Origin: Syncephalis plumigaleata
Lineage: Eukaryota > Zoopagomycota > Zoopagomycetes > Zoopagales > Piptocephalidaceae
NCBI GenBank assembly: GCA_025201365.1
Contig: JAIXMF010000008.1
Coordinates: 911,988 to 975,987 of the forward strand
Length of the DNA: 64,000 bases
Direction of reading: 5' to 3'
The notes under the pieces: model-generated
Seen by the model: only the letters and a program-made list of their open reading frames with translations
Databases searched by the model: none
Told to the model about the DNA's origin: nothing
Shown here: positions 8,179 through 63,423 of the stretch, piece by piece
Layout: each line of letters starts with the position of its first letter
Position numbering within the stretch: position 1 is the first letter of the stretch
Position numbers and translations under genes: made by a program

Positions 8179-8988
8179 GCAATTTGTTAGAGACTTTAAA
8201 TGTGCTTCATCGAATGAAGCGTCGCCTATCGAAATAAACATATGGTATACAGCTTATGATGGCGTGTATCGCGTGTTACATCGCCTCTTTCATTTCGACA
8301 TTCTAGCGTAAAAAGACGAATGTAATAAGCTAGGGAACATCAATAATGCCTGTTTGAAACTGGCAACAGTCACGTCATCATCATCATCATCAGCATCATC
8401 ATCATCGTCAACCAACGTATATAGATGCTACCAGAACGATAGGTCAAGAATCGAGTCTCACCCTTGTCTATAACTTTTGTCAAGTATACAATGTTTTAGC
8501 TATTAATACTTTACACGATGAAGATGTCGCACCGTACACATGAAACAGCAATATGCGCACCATTCGTATTACCTCATGTTATCGTCGAGATGTTGTGCGT
8601 TAGGGCAACACAACGTATACGTATATGTATACATATTAACTTCATCATGATCAACTACCAAATCGAGCATTCGCCTGATTTTCGTACAACACTCTTCTAA
8701 AACGTCTATATGATTTCGTGAAGGCATCAGGACTATCATCGTTCTTTTTTCACTTTGGCCTATAGACCCTCTTGTAGAATATAAAAGCACCACGCAATTG
8801 TCTCGTCATGTCCATATCCACCAACACATCTTATTCATTGCACTTTCCAGTAATCTCTTAATTGTAACGAGCAAGTGCCGGTCCTTCTTGTTTAACGCAC
8901 ACCTTTTTCTTAGCAAAAAAGAACAACCTGCATTCTTCTAGTCTTCATTGTGAATCTTTTTTTCCTAAGCATTGCAAGTTAATTTAAT
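8179..8988. promoter_or_regulatory. Intergenic region with TATA box for the Ser-rich secreted gene
   Basis: It holds a (TCA/ATC)n stretch (about 8372-8410) and a TATAAAA at 8780-8786, about 200 bp upstream of the ATG at 8989, followed by a pyrimidine-rich leader. The long TATA-to-ATG distance suggests a long 5' UTR. Short ORFs at 8518-8793 look spurious. Confidence 0.55.
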
Positions 8989-10647
8989 ATGAAATTCCCA
9001 CTTAGCATTGCTATTCTAGTGGCCACACTTGCCCTATGGACTGTGGAGGCGACTCCTACTGGTTATAACGGTCAATCCAGTTCAGCTAGCGGCAGTTCCA
9101 GTAGCAGCAGCTCCAGCAGTAGTTCCAGCAGTTACGCCGGTAGCAAATCCGGTAGTCACTCCAGCAGTAATTCAAAGAGCCACTCCAAGAGTAAATCAAA
9201 GAGTTACTACGGCAGTCACTCTATTAGCAAATCTGGCCACCATTCGAAAAGTAGATCTCACAACAAATCTCACAGTAAATTTCACAGTAAATCTGGCAGC
9301 TACTCCGTTAGCAAATCTGGCAGTAAATCTCACAGTAAAGCTGGTAGCAAGTCCAGAAAGAAACATGGTGGCTACACAGGCAGTGGCTCCGGTAGTGGCT
9401 CTGGCAGTGGTTCAGGCAGTGGTTCAGGTAGCGGTTCAGGTAGTGGCTCAGGTAGTGGCTCGCGTGGCTACATTGGTAGCAACACTGACAGTACTTCTGG
9501 TAGCAACACTGGCAGCAATTCAACCAGTAATACAGCCAGCAACTCAAGCAGGAACACAACCAGCAACACAGCCAGCAACACAGCCAACAAATCAGGCAGC
9601 AAATCAGGCAGCAAATCAGACAGCAAAGCAGACAGCAAAGCAGACAGCAAATCAGGCAGCAAATCAAGCAGCAATTCTAGTAGCTACTCTGATAGCGCTT
9701 CTATCAGCAAAGCTGCCAGCAGCTCTGGTAGCATCTCAAACAGCAACTCAGGTGTCAAGTCAAGTAGTAACTCCAATAATGCTGCTGTAACCAACACAGC
9801 CAGCAACACAAGCAGCAACGCTGTTAGCAGGGCTGACGACGACTATGACGATGAATTCGATACTGCTGATGAAATCAGCTTCGGCAGCGATTCAAGCAGC
9901 AGTTCTGGTAGCTATTCTAGTAGCAGCTCTAGCAGTGATTCAAGTAACAGCTCTGGCAGCACCAATAGTGGCGTCAAACAAGCAACATATGCTACCGCTC
10001 CTTTTGTTATTCCAACTATTGGCACTCCCAGTCCATTGGCTAATTCACAAGTTGCAAGCTATCAAGCTAATAATGCCGCATCAATCAATAACAATCAAGG
10101 CTTGTCGCAATCATCATCGTCATCATCAGCGGAATCGCACAGCTCTAATTCCTCCAATGTTAATGGCAAGAAAACCTCATCAAGCTCATATGAGACACAA
10201 GCTTCCGACCTGAAATCTTTCAGTAATGGCTCAGAAAACTTTCAGTCCGGCAGCGCAATAGCTGCCGCCATCAAGACAAAGTCGGACGGTGATAAATACA
10301 CTAGTACCGGTGAATTCGGTTCGTCCACCGCTAATGTCAATAACTCGGGCGGTTCGATGGAGACCAAGAATGCCGCGTACGCTATCACTCCTGATACTGT
10401 GAATCTCATAAATGATGGCGATAAAATCGACTTGCCCGCTGGAACTTTTCTTACCGCGGATCTTCTTATAAATAGCGCTAAACAGAACAGCATACCTGAT
10501 GAATTCGCGTCTTTATTCGGCGGTGGTATGAATAATAACTCCCAGAATAACGCTGCAAACAACGGATACCCTTCGGTCAAGACAGCCCAATCTGCTAATG
10601 ATTCAGGCAGCGCCTATCGTGCAGAAGTCTCTGGTAATGCTTACTAG
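8989..10647 (+). CDS. Large secreted serine-rich low-complexity protein
   Basis: A single-exon gene of 552 aa. A clear signal peptide (MKFPLSIAILVATLALWTVEA, then TPTG) is followed by a long Ser-dominated region. This region changes character along its length: poly-Ser (residues ~24-47), Ser-Lys-His repeats (~50-125), a Ser-Gly (GSGS) run (~130-158), Ser-Asn-Thr repeats (~160-200) and Ser-Lys-Asp repeats (~200-225). An acidic DDDYDDEFD patch follows near 283, and the C-terminal 200 residues are more complex. No enzymatic domain is seen. The composition suits a heavily O-glycosylated wall, spore-coat or adhesive protein. A TATA box upstream fits strong, regulated expression. Function is inferred only. 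Confidence 0.8.
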   Translation: MKFPLSIAILVATLALWTVEATPTGYNGQSSSASGSSSSSSSSSSSSSYAGSKSGSHSSSNSKSHSKSKSKSYYGSHSISKSGHHSKSRSHNKSHSKFHSKSGSYSVSKSGSKSHSKAGSKSRKKHGGYTGSGSGSGSGSGSGSGSGSGSGSGSGSGSRGYIGSNTDSTSGSNTGSNSTSNTASNSSRNTTSNTASNTANKSGSKSGSKSDSKADSKADSKSGSKSSSNSSSYSDSASISKAASSSGSISNSNSGVKSSSNSNNAAVTNTASNTSSNAVSRADDDYDDEFDTADEISFGSDSSSSSGSYSSSSSSSDSSNSSGSTNSGVKQATYATAPFVIPTIGTPSPLANSQVASYQANNAASINNNQGLSQSSSSSSAESHSSNSSNVNGKKTSSSSYETQASDLKSFSNGSENFQSGSAIAAAIKTKSDGDKYTSTGEFGSSTANVNNSGGSMETKNAAYAITPDTVNLINDGDKIDLPAGTFLTADLLINSAKQNSIPDEFASLFGGGMNNNSQNNAANNGYPSVKTAQSANDSGSAYRAEVSGNAY

Positions 10648-11657: not shown

Positions 11658-12149
11658 AGGGAAATATGAGATTGGCAGTACTAATTGACGTGATTCGATA
11701 ATAGAAATTGTATTAAAAAATAGGAATGTGATCGTAGAACAAGGAGAAAAGAGAGAGAATAAGCGAGTGAGCGTTTACTTGCTGAAACCTCAAATTTGGT
11801 GATCTCGTCGTTCCAAGAGTTAATATGCCATTTCCCAATTTGGTAGTGTGTTGACATTCATGTGATCATAAAGTCCTACAGTGCTTCGATAAGCATAACA
11901 CTATGCCTATTAAGTGTTGTTATCAGTTTCAACAGGAAGCATAGATAACAGTCATAAGTAATGCATACTTGTTGTTTATGTTTATGTTTATTTCGTTGTT
12001 GTTGTTGCTATTGTATTACTCCTTAATTATATCATAATTACATTGAGGCTTCAATCTAGGTATCTAACGTGATTGGCAAAATTGTTGAAACCAAGTTCTA
12101 CCTCATGCATTCCATTGCCAAGCTTAATCAAATGATATATTGCAAAATA
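11658..12149. other. Intergenic, AT-rich
   Basis: No gene was recognised. There is a TTG-rich tract around 11970-12010. It ends at the TA that flanks the MITE starting at 12150. Confidence 0.4.
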
Positions 12150-12378
12150 CAGGCTTTTTCCAACCAATTTGCGCAGTTACCCATTTGTCTTTACGAATAA
12201 ATAATAGTTATCGCTATCAATAAATGATCCATTACTGAATACTGAATTGTTATTATTATCATGCTATATCAATTGGTATTTCTACGGTGATAATGGATGT
12301 TAACAATTGTGTTAATCTATCTATTAATAAACTGTAAATGTTAAAAGATAAATGCGCAAACTGGATGGAAAAACACTG
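12150..12378 (+). mobile_element. MITE copy 1, Tc1/mariner-like, complete
   Basis: A 229-bp non-coding element flanked by TA dinucleotides (12148-12149 and 12379-12380). The left end begins CAGGCTTTTTCC and the right end is the inverse of CAGTGTTTTTCCATCC. A second copy at 46128-46354 aligns end to end in inverted orientation, with about nine positions in ten identical by eye. No ORF is present. TA flanks and ends starting CAGTG are typical of the Tc1/mariner superfamily, so this is probably a non-autonomous derivative mobilised in trans. Confidence 0.85.
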
Positions 12379-12480
12379 TAGGTTGTCATTAGTTAATTAA
12401 ATGTTTACTAATAAATTGAAATGCTAATTATTTATTATTTGTAATATGTAAACGAGCGATTAACTAATGAAAATGCCATA

Positions 12481-45583: not shown

Positions 45584-46127
45584 ATTCCTAACACGGCAAT
45601 CAATGATCTTTGCATTGAATAAAATAAAACACTACTTAAAAAATAAATCACAATTAGTATAGCAAACAACAACAAAAAATTTGAATGACAGTCCATCGTA
45701 GAATGGATCTAGCTTGTTTCAACGATCCTACAAGTAGGATATCTACACTCGAGAGTGCCACCCGCTGACCGTGATCGATGCGGACGGTTTTCGCTGCTCT
45801 GTTAGCCAGCCTCACGCATTGCCCGCCTCTTTAACAGCCTTGACCCATCATAGACGCTTCCGCGGATGAGCCAATGCCGACATCGCACTTCATCGGACAC
45901 ATCTGTCTACGCGAAGATAAACAAGCCAGTTTTGACACCATATCGTACGTCATCCCAGCCATTCAGAATAGGTTCCGCCAGTAGCAGCAGTCACAGATTA
46001 GTGCCAAAAATCCAACCTAGTTAGAATTGAGGTGAAAGCCTACATATACGTATCTCGTGACTGCTCTCATTAGCCAATCATATTGCTGCATTTTGTATAA
46101 TCATTTGAATGGCGGTATTTTATAATA
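45584..46127. other. Intergenic with GC-rich structured non-coding block
   Basis: About 45690-46030 is clearly richer in GC (near 50-58% in places) than surrounding non-coding DNA, yet no long ORF runs through it. Two adjacent short perfect hairpins are visible at about 45726-45762: ATCCTAC-AA-GTAGGAT and CACTC-GA-GAGTG. This could be a structured RNA gene or a degenerated coding exon. I tried to fit SRP RNA, RNase P and U3 hallmarks by eye and could not. Confidence 0.3.
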
Positions 46128-46354
46128 CAGTGTTTTTCCATCCAATTAGCGCATTTATCCTTTAACATTTGCAGCTTATTAATAAATAGATTAACACAAT
46201 TGTTAACACCATTATTACCATAGAAATGCCAATTGATACAGCATAATAATAATAACAATACAGTATTAGTAATGGATCATTTATTGATAGTGTTAATTAT
46301 TATTTATTCGTAAAAACAAATGGCTAACTGCGCAAATTGGATGGAAAAAGCCTG
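46128..46354 (-). mobile_element. MITE copy 2, Tc1/mariner-like, complete
   Basis: A 227-bp element in opposite orientation to copy 1, bounded by TA at 46126-46127 and 46355-46356. The left terminus reads CAGTGTTTTTCCATCCAATT and the right terminus is the inverse of CAGGCTTTTTCCATCC. The interior matches copy 1 throughout, including the conserved sub-terminal tract TTTTTACGAATAAATAATA. The short ORF across it (46070-46258) is a by-product of the repeat, not a gene. Confidence 0.87.
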
Positions 46355-46525
46355 TAAAACAATTTCAATTGCTACTTTTATTCAATGTGTGAAATAGGTA
46401 AATTTATTGCTGACTAGCCAGAGTCAGAATGTAGATGCTATAGCATGCATGGTATAATTTTATCATTAATAAAGGTGAATTTAGCTGAGGATGATGTGTC
46501 GCGCTCTCCCGTCTTATCTGTTGGA

Positions 46526-55015: not shown

Positions 55016-56344
55016 TGCTTCTCAATACTACACCGTGTAAGTAACTTTAGTGGAAATCAAGCTAGTGGACGAGTGTTGTCGATCGTATCAAAAAAATGCT
55101 GACTTGGCGAAGCACGAGTCAAGGATGTATGCATGAAACTGTCGAGTATGGTTAGGGTGTAGAAGTTGTATGCAGCAATGCCGACACAGATGATGACTTG
55201 AAAAATGATTAAATCACAACAACCAAATAAAACAAATACGATGTAGAATAGCCTAGTATAAATTAATTAACTGTATAGACACCAATAGTGTATCGTAAGT
55301 GTAGGTGTCGTAATCTGAGTGAACGATAGATTGAATCAAGACAAGTAGGATAATATAATAATAAAGTAATAAAATAGAGATAATAAAGTGGTAATAAAGA
55401 AGAAAGCGATTGAAGAATGGAGGATGGTAGGTCGCTTGAAAAAAGAAAATGCCTAAAATGATATGGCTAGACTCCGACTGGGTTCACCAGTGAACGTCGG
55501 ATAATCAAATACCACGCTGGTCACACTAGTAGTTATCGCGTATTCAATCACAAAGAAAGAGCTGCGCACACGCACACACACACACACACAAAGCAAACGA
55601 ATAGATAAATAGTGTTATATATGAATGCAAAGTGAGCGTGTTATAGTGCTAGAATGAGTGCAAGTGTAACCTGTAAAAGAAGGAAAGCGAGAAACTAGTG
55701 TGCGCGTGTAGGTATGATAGAAAGGAAAGGATGGAAGGATGGCAAGTAAGTGACCATGTAACAACAAAGCCACCATACAAACGACAATAAAAGAGGCAGA
55801 CCAGGCCCGTTCATACAATCACTTTGAATGAGCGACTAGGAAAGAGGAAAGGCAGTATTGAAATTATAAAATAATAAATGGTGGATATATTGTTGCTGTT
55901 ATTAGTGCTAGATAAAGAATAGTAGTAGTAGTAGTAGTAGTAGTAGGAAAAGTAGCTGCGGATGTTTAAATGTAGATCCTGCACCGTATCCTGCTTCTTA
56001 TTGCACACAAGGCAGGATAAGAAGCGACAGTATACAGAAACCGGACTATGTCAACAAGCAGCACGACTAAACAAGTGTGGACGAGTGAGCGAGCGAGAAA
56101 GAGAGGGTACTCCTCGAGAGAGAGAGAGAGAGAGAGAGATGGTGATACAAGTTGTATGGTGAGTGGAAAAAAAGGGGCCATTCCGTGCATCGTGCAGTCT
56201 GAATCATGTTAGCGTAGTAGAAGGTTGTTGTTGTTGTTGTTGTTGTGGTTAGCCACACACATGTGTGTGTGTTTGTGCTTGTTCCATTTATTCAGGTGGC
56301 ATGCTAAAGTGTCTTTTATTGGTAATTATCCTGTAGTAGTATTA
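55016..56344. other. Low-complexity intergenic region with several microsatellites
   Basis: Holds (CA)n at about 55566-55592, (GTA)n at about 55919-55947, (GA)n at about 56117-56139 and (TTG)n at about 56222-56246. This dense cluster of unrelated simple repeats lies upstream of the kelch gene. No coding gene was seen. Confidence 0.5.
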
Positions 56345-56373
56345 CAGGCTTTTTCCATCCAATTTGCGCAGTA
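56345..56373 (+). mobile_element. MITE left-end footprint
   Basis: CAGGCTTTTTCCATCC and the following AATTTGCGCAGT match the MITE left terminus exactly, preceded by TA (56343-56344). The match stops abruptly after GCGCAGT and no right end is found downstream, so this is a solo terminus or a truncated copy. Confidence 0.75.
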
Positions 56374-60066: not shown

Positions 60067-60372
60067 TACAGTTTAGTGGTAGGACTATTCCGTGTTATAG
60101 TAGCAGTAGTAGAAGTGGCAGAATATGATATAAGCGTGTTAAAAAGGATTACAAGTGCTCCACAACCCCGCGTGTTCCCTATCAACCATTGTTGCAACTA
60201 GAGCAGCTGTGCTAATAGTGATGACGATGATGCCCTCATTCATAATATGGGGGTACATTCGGCAATAAACATATCCGTTCATGTGGCACTACTGCTATTA
60301 CGTGTATACCAATAATCACTCGCTTATCCTAATCATATACATTAATCTATAATTGTTATTCATAAATCTATA

Positions 60373-60430
60373 CCAAACATTTCCAATCAATTAGCGCTGT
60401 GAGCCTTTTGTTTTTACGAATAAATAGTAG
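60373..60430 (+). mobile_element. Degenerate MITE/transposon end beside the Fanzor-like remnant
   Basis: The stretch TTTCCAATCAATTAGCGC, followed by TTTTGTTTTTACGAATAAAT, aligns to the left end of the MITE family (TTTCCATCCAATTTGCGC ... TTTGTTTTTACGAATAAATA). The outermost bases have decayed, although a TA remains at 60371-60372. The orientation points the element body to the right, towards the Fanzor-like ORF whose stop is about 40 bp away. No right end was found before the F-box gene. Confidence 0.65.
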
Positions 60431-60467
60431 CCATGATAATATGTATTCAGATGTAAAAGCGATAGTA

Positions 60468-60806
60468 TCACGGATAAGTTGTTTCTTGTTGTCCTTGTCC
60501 TTCATTTCTTGAACGTTTAAAAGCAATGACACTTTGATGTAGCTGTGTTGGAACACCATTTCCATTGCGAAGACTGAGAATAATCTGAATAACATTCAGA
60601 TATGCTGCCATATCCCGATTCCATACACGATACTCGAATCCTTCACCATTCATGTCATCATTACAATTCTGATGTGTGCATCTAATAGAATAATGAATTA
60701 GTATATTGTTATAGATTGTACTCATCTTAAGAAGACATGACAAGTAACAGTAGGATATCTTGTCAATTAGAATGACTTGAACACCATGCTTCATTATTAT
60801 CCACAC
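60468..60806 (-). pseudogene. Fanzor/TnpB-like RuvC nuclease, C-terminal remnant
   Basis: A 112-aa ORF matching only the C-terminal end of the large TnpB-like/Fanzor family of fungal transposon proteins. MKHGVQVILIDKISYCYLSC corresponds to the segment before the zinc ribbon (family KHGYKVYLIDEF..S..CPxC), RCTHQNC is the second half of the zinc ribbon, and RVWNRDMAAYLNVIQII is the RuvC-III block (family LWNRDLAAVLNF) with the catalytic Asp present in NRD. SLRNGNGVP matches the family tail. The stretch between the two Cys pairs is shortened, the first pair is C-x3-C, and everything N-terminal (RuvC-I/II, wedge) is missing upstream. The F-box gene starts about 90 bp away on the other strand. It is most likely a dead fragment. 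Confidence 0.7.
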
Positions 60807-60893
60807 TTGTGTATGATTTATTTGTGTATTCTTGATTAAACTAACGTCATCGTATTTCTCTACCCCATATCGCCTTTCTTATTCCATTCCACT

Positions 60894-62519
60894 ATGTCTA
60901 CTACTACTACTACTACTGAAATATTGAGTAATTCCAACTCGTCTTGTAGATTACTAGTTTGTCTGAATAGTCTTCCATTTCATGACCAGCGTGTCTTCCG
61001 TAGTCTACTTGGTCATATCGAATTAGTGCGTTTATCAGCATGTTGTCACTCGTTAAGAAACAGTATTCGAAATGATCCAATATTATGGCAACAAATATAC
61101 CATAGGGATTTCCTATCGGGTGCCTATTATGTTAAAGAAATGGATTTTGTATTATGGTGTATACGCACGGATGTCAACAATCCGTGTACATCGGATAAAC
61201 GAGCCGATCTACTAGAGAATGTGGACTGGTACAACACATATCGTCGACGAGTAAGCACCGAGAATAATTGGCGATATGGACGATGCAAGACCACGCATAT
61301 CGATCTGGAATCTGATAAAAATGGAGTATGTTATATCACAGAAGCTGGAGATAATGATTTAATTATCATACAACAAATCCGCTTGGACGGGACATCAACT
61401 CATAATTATAGTTTAGAATATTTGCCCCATTCAAATTTTAGATCAAACCATAATAATGTATATAACACTACATTCTCTACATCGCCAAACACCCTTTCGC
61501 TGGGTAACGCTAATGAAGTTCAGTATTACTATGCCAAGGGTGACCATTACATAGCCGTATCTCCTAAGACAATTGAGAACAATACCAGCTATAATGTAAA
61601 AATACTTTCTCGAAATCATGGCGGTGTCTTCACTACATTCGATGTTCCAGTACCATATAGAGTGGAGACAATTGAGGGGAAATGGGCATTATTAGTGCAT
61701 GAATTGCAGCAATCATACAGATTTTGGCCAATTTGTAAGCGTAGTAATTGTAAAATGATGTATTATAGCTAGTACTAATAATCAATGAACTTAGACCATA
61801 TAATGGTATTCGATATAGATAACAGTATCATGTGTCCAGGGAACATTGATGATACATGGAATGTAGTCCATTTCTATAAAACAACCAATAATACAGCAAT
61901 AGTATACACAGCAAGAATCGTCAAAGATGATGTGGGTCGTATTGAATGGGCATTATACCAGTTCTCGAGCAATAATCCTGTTGTACAATGGCGAAATGGC
62001 TGGTTTGAACTACCTGAGAGTATGGCGAATGCGCGGCTATTTATTTATTATTCATGCAATTCGCATGTGCTCCTCAATTTATATAATAGTTCTAATTATA
62101 GTGTATACATAATTCACAGTGTAGCATCCAATGGTCAAAGTCATACTCCACATAATTGCTACACTATATCTGACCAACATATACCTATCCCATTGTTAAG
62201 GGCTGGATACACGCATTTAATATATGGTTGCAGACCGGCAAAAGTATGGACAGACTTATCCTACAATGACGATCAAGTATTACAGATACCGGGCGCTATT
62301 TTCACTAGAAATATTATAGGAGATCTTTATGAGTTTATTACAAGAGATCATGATCTTATAGAAAGTCGATTGCTTGTGGACATCAATGCAAAGGAGATAA
62401 TACGCGAATTGGAAGTGCCGAACACGGACGAACAAGTGGATAATTATACAATGTTTGGCACGATATGTAGTCCCGATTATAGCCGTGTGCAAATTATACA
62501 GGAATACGGCGAACTATAA
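60894..62519 (+). CDS. F-box protein with unknown C-terminal domain
   Basis: Two exons, 60894-61734 and 61795-62519, separated by a 60-bp intron (GTAAGC...TACTAAT...TTAG) that restores one frame across an apparent stop; about 521 aa. The N-terminus starts with a Thr run and then an F-box: LNSLPFHDQRVFRSLLGHIE, LVRLSACCHSLRNSIRNDPI, LWQQIYHRDF. The rest is Asn/Tyr-rich with repeated strand-like segments, possibly a propeller, but no WD40, kelch or LRR signature is clear. It would recruit substrates to the SCF ligase through SKP1, whose gene is nearby. Substrate unknown. Confidence 0.82.
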
Positions 62520-63423
62520 CAAGCATCAATAAATCATACTATATTAGTTAATAAGAGCAGTGTTATACATCATTAAATCATAACACATGCAAATACTTTC
62601 TATGAACTGGATGATTGATCGAATAAATCAACTATAGCAGCAATTGAGACATCAAGCTGTACAAACTGATGAATGCTTCTCAATGTATAGAGGACGTTGC
62701 TCGGTAGCACATGTACTACGGCATCATTTCATTCTGCTTGATTGAAGCTTGCTATCTGAATAATCTCGAATGCCATTATAACAATGCACCGAATAAAACA
62801 AGCATTCATGTTGTCCTTTACTAAATGTTCCTGTCAATTTATCATAACTTGTTAAAACTATTGTAATATATGATATCGCAATCATTAACATCTCCCTCAA
62901 CTGCTAGTGCCATGACAACTACTCAATGATAATAACAATGCAATAATGGTGTTAATAATAGTGCAAATCTATTTAGTAATAAACAGCAAAAGTTAAAGGT
63001 CAACAGTGTTAATTGGATGGAAAAACACTGTATTTTCTATGTCGTTACTCTTCTTGTCATCGATCTATTATTAGACTAGTGCTGAGTTGTTGACATTGCT
63101 TCAAAGGTTATGCGTGCAGTGTAGAACAACAACTAGTCACGACGTCATTGCTTCTTTCCTGTTTACGCTTTGTTTTCCACGCTAGTAGTAAACAAAGTAG
63201 TATCGACTCACGCAATGCAATGGCTTTGTGCATCCCTACAAAGGACGGCCATACCTCCATTCGTTTATTGCCGACGTATAAACGGTAGTTATTCTCGTGT
63301 CATTGACACATATCAAGTAATGGAAACATCTTACGCATAGTTAATGGTAGGGTCGGTGTTTTCTGTTCTGTTTTAAGAGTGAACATGGAAGATTCTACAA
63401 TGGCTATTTTTACATCGTCTTCT
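62520..63423. other. Intergenic with MITE half-copy
   Basis: Beyond the MITE right half (about 62937-63030), this region is AT-rich non-coding DNA with no recognised gene. A short palindrome-rich stretch near 63180-63260 is unremarkable. Confidence 0.4.
62937..63030 (+). mobile_element. MITE right half, truncated copy
   Basis: From AATAATGGTGTTAATAATAG to the terminus AATTGGATGGAAAAACACTG plus TA (63031-63032), this aligns with the right half of MITE copies 1 and 2. The left half is not recognisable. The terminus itself is identical to copy 1 over the last 15 bases; internal positions have drifted more. Confidence 0.75.

Follow-up and report, generated by a model that had tools for sequence, protein, structure and literature searches.

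The role that Fanzor proteins play for their transposons in eukaryotes is an open question, and the systems described so far provide the frame in which a new locus can be placed. Fanzor1 elements with a TA target and no transposase of their own have already been reported (PMC3627910), as have ghost loci (PMC10432273). The Spu-1 family of Spizellomyces punctatus is described as comprising 42 full or partial Fanzor loci and 134 ghosts (Saito et al. 2023, PMC10432273), and a 75-nt region of the right end works in that organism as a ghost guide RNA, according to the same report. Fanzor1 genes are also carried by the Tc/mariner elements PGv-1, PUl-1 and PUl-4 (Bao and Jurka 2013, PMC3627910). A Fanzor1 gene of SfAV resides in a non-autonomous element that codes for nothing else; two viral copies are described and the RNA has been shown (PMC10711439).

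The window analysed here, the whole stretch of 64,000 nucleotides of Syncephalis plumigaleata, contains members of a family that shares much with these systems. As described for Spu-1, Fanzor1 is flanked by inverted repeats, gene-less elements bearing the ends are much more numerous and no transposase was found between the repeats (PMC10432273). A TA target and Mariner-like ends are shared with PGv-1, PUl-1 and PUl-4, as is the existence of Fanzor-only families without transposase, of which PUl-4 is the example (PMC3627910), and elements coding only for Fanzor1 are shared with SfAV. Unlike Spu-1 as reported, the ghosts fall here into several size classes, including one with an F-box-like gene that is present in at least about 100 copies, and a transposase family with related ends is found in the same genome. 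Hundreds of related elements are present, in contrast to the two copies of SfAV. Comparison of their sequences shows that the family ranges from MITEs of 231 bp, through derivatives of 1.1 kb and 2.66 kb keeping the 3' end of Fanzor1 only, to elements of 4.2-4.5 kb with a long Fanzor1 gene. The explanation favoured overall, with a probability of roughly 0.7, is that elements sharing these ends would be moved in trans and retained by RNA-guided Fanzor activity, the F-box class being a derivative. The features of the window on which the comparison is built are as follows.

12148..12380, minus strand: complete MITE copy of 233 bp (repeat alignment; genome search row)
46126..46356, plus strand: complete MITE copy of 231 bp, used as reference (repeat alignment; genome search row; 92-94% to both ends of the complete Fanzor elements FzA and FzB)
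56343..56372, no strand assigned: lone MITE end of 30 bp (97% to the MITE end at 12148; matches the TIR pattern without mismatch)
60371..60430, no strand assigned: decayed terminal repeat on the Fanzor 3' side, counterpart of the right terminus shared by the Fanzor elements and the MITE at 46126-46356 (repeat alignment)
60468..60878, minus strand: Fanzor1 C-terminal remnant (PDB Fanzor1 matches; aligns as DNA with the 3' region of FzA and FzB)
60894..61734, plus strand: exon 1 of the F-box-like gene (open frame 60840-61772; start codon and splice donor placed by visual inspection)
61735..61794, plus strand: inferred 60-bp intron, GTAAGC...TACTAAT...TTAG (read from the sequence; the frame of copy L018 is continuous here)
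61795..62519, plus strand: exon 2 of the F-box-like gene, through the stop codon (open frame 61782-62519; arrangement repeated in other copies)
62942..63032, no strand assigned: second terminal repeat, counterpart of the left terminus that MITE and Fanzor elements share (repeat alignment)

An earlier note on this DNA had placed a Fanzor-like C-terminal remnant at 60371..60806, an interval that includes the terminal repeat and most of the remnant ORF, and both the place and the kind of feature proved right. The frame at 60468-60878 on the minus strand comprises 136 aa from stop to stop in the open reading frame listing and contains CTHQNC and RVWNRDMAAYLN. It matches the C-termini of PpFz1 (9cf0, E = 6.5e-4) and SpuFz1 (8gkh, E = 1.4e-3) in the PDB, with alignments spanning the second zinc knuckle and the WNRD block, and its assignment as a truncated Fanzor1 C-terminus is confirmed. 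Its layout consists of a degenerate first zinc knuckle (SYCYLSC), an old intron, the second knuckle CTHQNC and the RuvC-III motif WNRDM, that is, a C4 zinc finger followed by RD, with the first knuckle degenerate. The RuvC-III block recognized previously stands; the description of the ribbon as one half does not, since the degenerate first knuckle is present too. The RuvC-I aspartate (DPG) and the N-terminal domains were not found in the window ORF when it was checked for Fanzor membership, and a search of the genome with the Fanzor exon-1 protein returned no row at the window remnant at E up to 0.01. At the DNA level, the window element matches FzA and FzB solely at the two termini and in the 3' end of the gene. 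The remnant is divergent in sequence: the ORF matched no Pfam family at E up to 10, and in the whole genome no match to the TnpB zinc-ribbon model PF07282 was obtained at E up to 0.001 (25 scored candidates). Copies of the remnant ORF amount to 150 scored rows out of 647 candidates in the 32.6-Mb genome. No longer Fanzor frame was found at five divergent remnants (L062-L066), and none of 8 pattern stretches on viral contigs is related to full-length Fanzor.

The near edge of the decayed terminal repeat is situated 37 nt past the stop codon of the remnant, close to the distance of about 40 bp given before, and its derivation from a MITE end is upheld by the alignments. Positions 60380-60430 match the MITE at 12148-12380 with 84% identity over 51 nt and positions 60371-60400 with 70% over 30 nt, and the end at 60371-60430 matches positions 176-222 of the MITE at 46126 with 87% over 47 nt. 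The tract TTTTTACGAATAAATA occurs exactly at 60411-60426 and at 46301-46316; when up to 3 mismatches are allowed, 9 matches are obtained in the window versus 1.4 expected. A second end, missed by the earlier note together with the F-box-like gene located between the two ends, is found at 62942-63032 and displays 84.6% identity over 91 nt to MITE positions 1-91 and 84% over 90 nt to positions 1-90 of FzA. With ends on both sides, the window copy is one non-autonomous transposon of 2.66 kb (about 2662 bp, 60371-63032), in which the Fanzor 3' remnant on the minus strand and the F-box-like gene on the plus strand are enclosed between the termini.

The F-box-like designation was chosen with caution. 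The frame of the window matches PF12937 at E = 8.6e-4 and PF00646 at E = 0.012, both under the Pfam cut-off, and one or both of these models scored at E values of 3e-4 to 0.015, under the cut-off, in 4 of 4 proteins tried; F-box-like is therefore the safe name. Exon 2 has no Pfam match of its own, and the protein of copy L018, in which a 513-aa frame runs uninterrupted across the inferred intron site, has no PDB match at E up to 1. Exon 1 is represented in the genome by at least 130 rows (scored out of 322 candidates), 103 of the 130 being free of internal stops. A listed Fanzor remnant is found head-to-head with 99 of the 130 rows, 145 of the 150 remnant rows having been entered in the comparison; the 31 of 130 rows devoid of a listed remnant count against this arrangement. 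A terminal repeat is also present at the far end in 3 of 3 other F-box copies for which this end was fetched. Among the best 30 remnant copies, 5 were aligned against 18 copies in the same orientation, and the alignments span the end region, the ORF and the F-box-like gene. Most of them extend to about 100 nt from the fetched edge; copies L003 and L019 stop earlier versus most others. Conservation in the F-box elements is lowest at the Fanzor-side end, which has a mean identity of 0.51 at 60360-60399 and of 0.68 at 60400-60439 and is not visible by eye in several of the 30 copies.

The truncation of the remnant and the decay of the window terminus would fit a mere dead scrap of Fanzor lying beside an unrelated host F-box gene, an explanation that is contradicted by the head-to-head arrangement of 99 out of 130 rows, by the alignments running through both genes and by the ends on both sides, and that we regard as highly improbable. 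The earlier judgement that this copy is clearly dead holds for the Fanzor part and does not extend to the element as a whole, which is a carrier of the F-box-like gene. The comparisons indicate that in the 2.66-kb class the F-box-like gene has replaced the rest of Fanzor, head-to-head with the remnant, and has spread to at least about 100 copies.

Long Fanzor1 genes with the same ends are present elsewhere in the genome. The model NF040570 gave one genome match (E = 4.6), which proved to be a full-length Fanzor1 whose open frame of 687 aa is accompanied by a short intron and by a second exon that terminates in WNRDMAACLN...KTIHP. When the first exon of this gene was used as a query, 85 rows were obtained in the genome, 14 of which span at least residues 13-661 without a stop; the 12 best-scoring loci of the 85 constitute the long Fanzor1 set. 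Exon 1 of L061 matches PpFz1 at E = 3.4e-102, SpuFz1 at 2.9e-32 and GtFz1 at 6.9e-07, and PpFz1 of Parasitella parasitica (PMC11423790) is the closest solved relative of the full-length protein, with the same catalytic motifs. All 12 long copies (L067-L078) possess DPG, the alternative glutamate (IDE, within IDEHKTSKCCP.C), the zinc finger RCTH..C and WNRDM. In the surroundings of RuvC-I, RRN is found instead of RRD in 7 of the 12; TDG is at its expected place in 11, the first match in L075 being located elsewhere. The median dN/dS of 0.37 over 66 pairs points to purifying selection on these genes. The right end of the MITE follows the stop codon at 12 of 12 long loci; the earlier note had stated that full-length Fanzor genes never carrying this terminal sequence would refute the connection, and the opposite was observed. 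Intact elements with both ends, which it had proposed to look for, were also found. Two of them, FzA and FzB, were read completely: they measure 4540 and 4233 bp, and their inverted TACAG...CTGTA termini are the two ends of the MITE. No transposase frame was detected in either. From the left end to the Fanzor start, about 1.7-1.9 kb display no long frame, contain internal direct repeats and are partly well conserved between copies.

The relation of the MITEs to these elements can be read along the reference copy. Its positions 1-165 (FzB) or 1-175 (FzA) correspond to the left end and its positions 164-231 (FzB) or 171-231 (FzA) to the right end, with 92-94% identity, and 61-68 nt of the right end of the Fanzor element are retained. 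An origin of the MITE by internal deletion of a Fanzor element, both parental ends being joined, is supported by this correspondence. The former suggestion of the MITE as the non-autonomous shell of a TA-target transposon carrying Fanzor is supported by the right ends at all 12 long loci, the two complete elements and the 92-94% match. An intermediate size is illustrated by the 1110-bp element L081, in which a left and a right end enclose segments in common with the F-box element as well as the region of the Fanzor intron and exon 2. Family termini with at most 1 mismatch number 402 in forward and 401 in reverse orientation (803 in the genome), compared with 0 for a reversed control pattern. 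TA is found at both termini of 25 of 25 full-length MITE rows (21 distinct sites), and no duplication longer than TA is observed. At C1:1009562-1013746, intact family ends 4185 bp apart enclose no Fanzor exon-1 row.

The qualification of the family as Tc1/mariner-like can be retained in part: the TA target, the inverted ends and a DDE_3 family with similar ends argue for it, and the lack of a DDE/D transposase in FzA and FzB argues against it. Three DDE_3 families were fetched, one of which has family-related ends and encodes a protein of 383 aa (99.9 bits). Five copies of this protein are each enclosed by exact ends spaced 4525 bp apart, and DDE_3 matches are also found within four shorter end pairs (two of 2566 bp and two of 2621 bp). 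One DDE_3 end was read; it matches the end of the F-box element with 85% identity over 48 nt (E = 1e-8) and, weakly, that of the Fanzor element (79.6% over 49 nt, E = 0.005). The 383-aa protein is a candidate for the trans-mobilizer of the family. The Tc1 element L085 was rejected as a source of the partner transposase because its 213-bp ends are unrelated, and L087 because it has no matching ends. L085 (C1:571950-573750) displays perfect 213-bp inverted ends, encodes a DDE_3 protein of 380 aa and is located inside a Fanzor gene, with Fanzor matches on both sides. Two places, C216:13790-16399 and C329:1076391-1079000, each contain a DDE_3 fragment about 2.05 kb from a Fanzor remnant on the same strand, perhaps as traces of an older element that carried both.

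The favoured explanation can be summarized as the following sequence of events. A DDE transposase of the Tc1/mariner type, supplied in trans, would move all size classes by their ends. The long Fanzor genes would provide an RNA-guided nuclease, for which guide RNA would be made from the right end of each element. The nuclease would cut the matching empty site beside an [A/C][A/C]TA motif, and repair of the cut site would restore or copy the element. This action would extend in trans to the MITEs.

The left ends show a one-sided bias, such as would be expected from trans action through a Fanzor recognition motif. Among the fetched loci, 18 of 28 distinct sites have A or C at both of the first two positions outward from the left TA, versus 11 of 37 on the right and a background of 0.267 for all TA sites of the window. 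For the MITEs alone, the proportions at distinct sites are 14/21 on the left and 6/21 on the right. Genome-wide, [A/C][A/C]TA accompanies 158 of about 259 exact left ends, a count in which duplicated sites are included and whose denominator may be slightly low, the pattern for the 259 ends being one base longer than the bias pattern; right ends with the bias number 79, near background. On the contigs covered by the termini listing, a hand count gave 26/44 on the left versus 14/56 on the right (Fisher p = 0.0009), where the 56 comprise all listed termini that are not exact left ends and the stricter right pattern may make the right fraction too low; the figure of 11/37 is the right-side control free of this mismatch of patterns.

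The same bias could be produced by a target preference of the transposase if two non-identical ends were handled asymmetrically, Fanzor then having no role in the persistence of the elements. The left and right ends do differ in sequence, and an asymmetric transposase complex is thus possible. Target preferences of Tc1/mariner elements are, on the other hand, generally described as symmetric about TA. The layout described for Spu-1 also stands against a mere transposase preference: it is identical to that observed here, CA being found outside the left repeat, and the CATA so formed is the tested TAM (PMC10432273). We consider a transposase preference plausible enough to be kept in view, at somewhat less than even odds. 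The TAM of PpFz1 is reported as ATN (PMC11423790), unlike the [A/C][A/C]TA suggested by the flank bias.

RNA-guided retention would further imply a guide RNA at the right end. The tract TTTTTACGAATAAATA is located where the scaffold of such an RNA would be and can be designated as a putative scaffold. A short hairpin follows the stop codon at 12 of 12 long Fanzor loci, and its arms change on both sides between subfamilies (GGUUG/CAACC, GAUUG/CAAUC and GAUAG/CUAUC). In 25 of the 30 F-box copies the hairpin tract can be recognized, with 12 or more of its 16 letters retained, and in these 25 all five arm pairs are complete in 1 copy, four in 15 and three in 9. Another pairing, GTGAT/ATCGC, is intact in 22 of the 30 copies and is uninformative because it forms part of the search motif. 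In the Fanzor elements, the final 72 nt form a weak fold in which a GGCU/AGCC stem is seen at the right end and covariation is scarce; the consensus fold of the MITE right ends is unlike that of the Fanzor right ends. Both points weigh against the favoured explanation. MITE positions 166-195, the expected site of the scaffold, are among the least conserved (0.84-0.88) and the right end is not better conserved than the left part. Strong constraint on positions 166-195 is therefore disfavoured. With 61-68 nt of the right end retained in the MITE, it is a reasonable idea that this segment could act as a putative ghost guide RNA, by analogy with the 75-nt region of S. punctatus.

The history of the F-box class was addressed through 30 copies (L001-L030) chosen as the best 30 remnant matches, a biased choice by which the apparent divergence of the remnant is lowered. 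In these copies dS amounts to 0.07-0.10 over the remnant and to 0.05-0.14 over the first 180 aligned F-box codons, with the exception of one 30-codon bin at 0.32, and rises to 0.28-0.71 beyond. The F-box-like gene is consequently divided by this dS step into a homogenized N-terminal part and a diversified C-terminal part. Recombination or gene conversion in the class is likely, because such a step would not be expected in a unit that does not recombine. The median dN/dS of the F-box gene is 0.61, with stops in 5 of 30 copies; the remnant displays a value of 0.60 (0.74 in the exon-2 part) and stops in 19 of 30.

These figures bear on the reason for which the remnant is kept in the F-box elements. 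It is rather probable that the remnant persists as 5' flank or promoter of the F-box gene, or through gene conversion homogenizing this block, and not for a guide RNA. The low-dS block runs through the remnant and the first 180 aligned F-box codons, the terminal repeat has not been preserved, the stop-codon hairpin is weakened and the remnant is interrupted in 19 of 30 copies. This must be balanced against the selection of the copies as the best 30 remnant matches, which lowers the apparent divergence, and against the conservation of WNRDM in 27 of 30 remnants and of a recognizable hairpin loop tract in 25. The favoured explanation accommodates such a role of the remnant: in the F-box elements the Fanzor function has probably decayed, the remnant would now be mainly the 5' flank of the F-box gene, and in our reading the F-box family no longer depends on the Fanzor side. 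In its widest and more tentative form, to which we give less than an even chance, the proposal is that dozens of Fanzor1 genes would constitute a trans-acting, RNA-guided retention system for hundreds of gene-less elements, MITEs included, leaving the one-sided [A/C][A/C]TA footprint. The same machinery would once have carried an F-box gene and turned it into a mobile family of at least 100 copies with a homogenized F-box end and a diversified substrate-binding end.

The series from MITE to Fanzor element and the F-box cargo class are not known to be described in PMC3627910, the main text of which does not contain the word F-box, and no report of the F-box class, or of a flank bias across gene-less elements, was found in searches of an open-access library on Fanzor and on F-box or transposon expansions. 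The genome of S. plumigaleata combines open-frame Fanzor genes with complete active sites, gene-less classes with the same ends, a candidate transposase and a flank signature, and makes the idea of help in trans directly testable. In the F-box class, an RNA-guided transposon family would have dispersed a family of protein-coding genes. As a separate observation in the same window, a Ser-rich frame of 554 aa with an array of 12-nt periodic repeats is found at 8983-10644.
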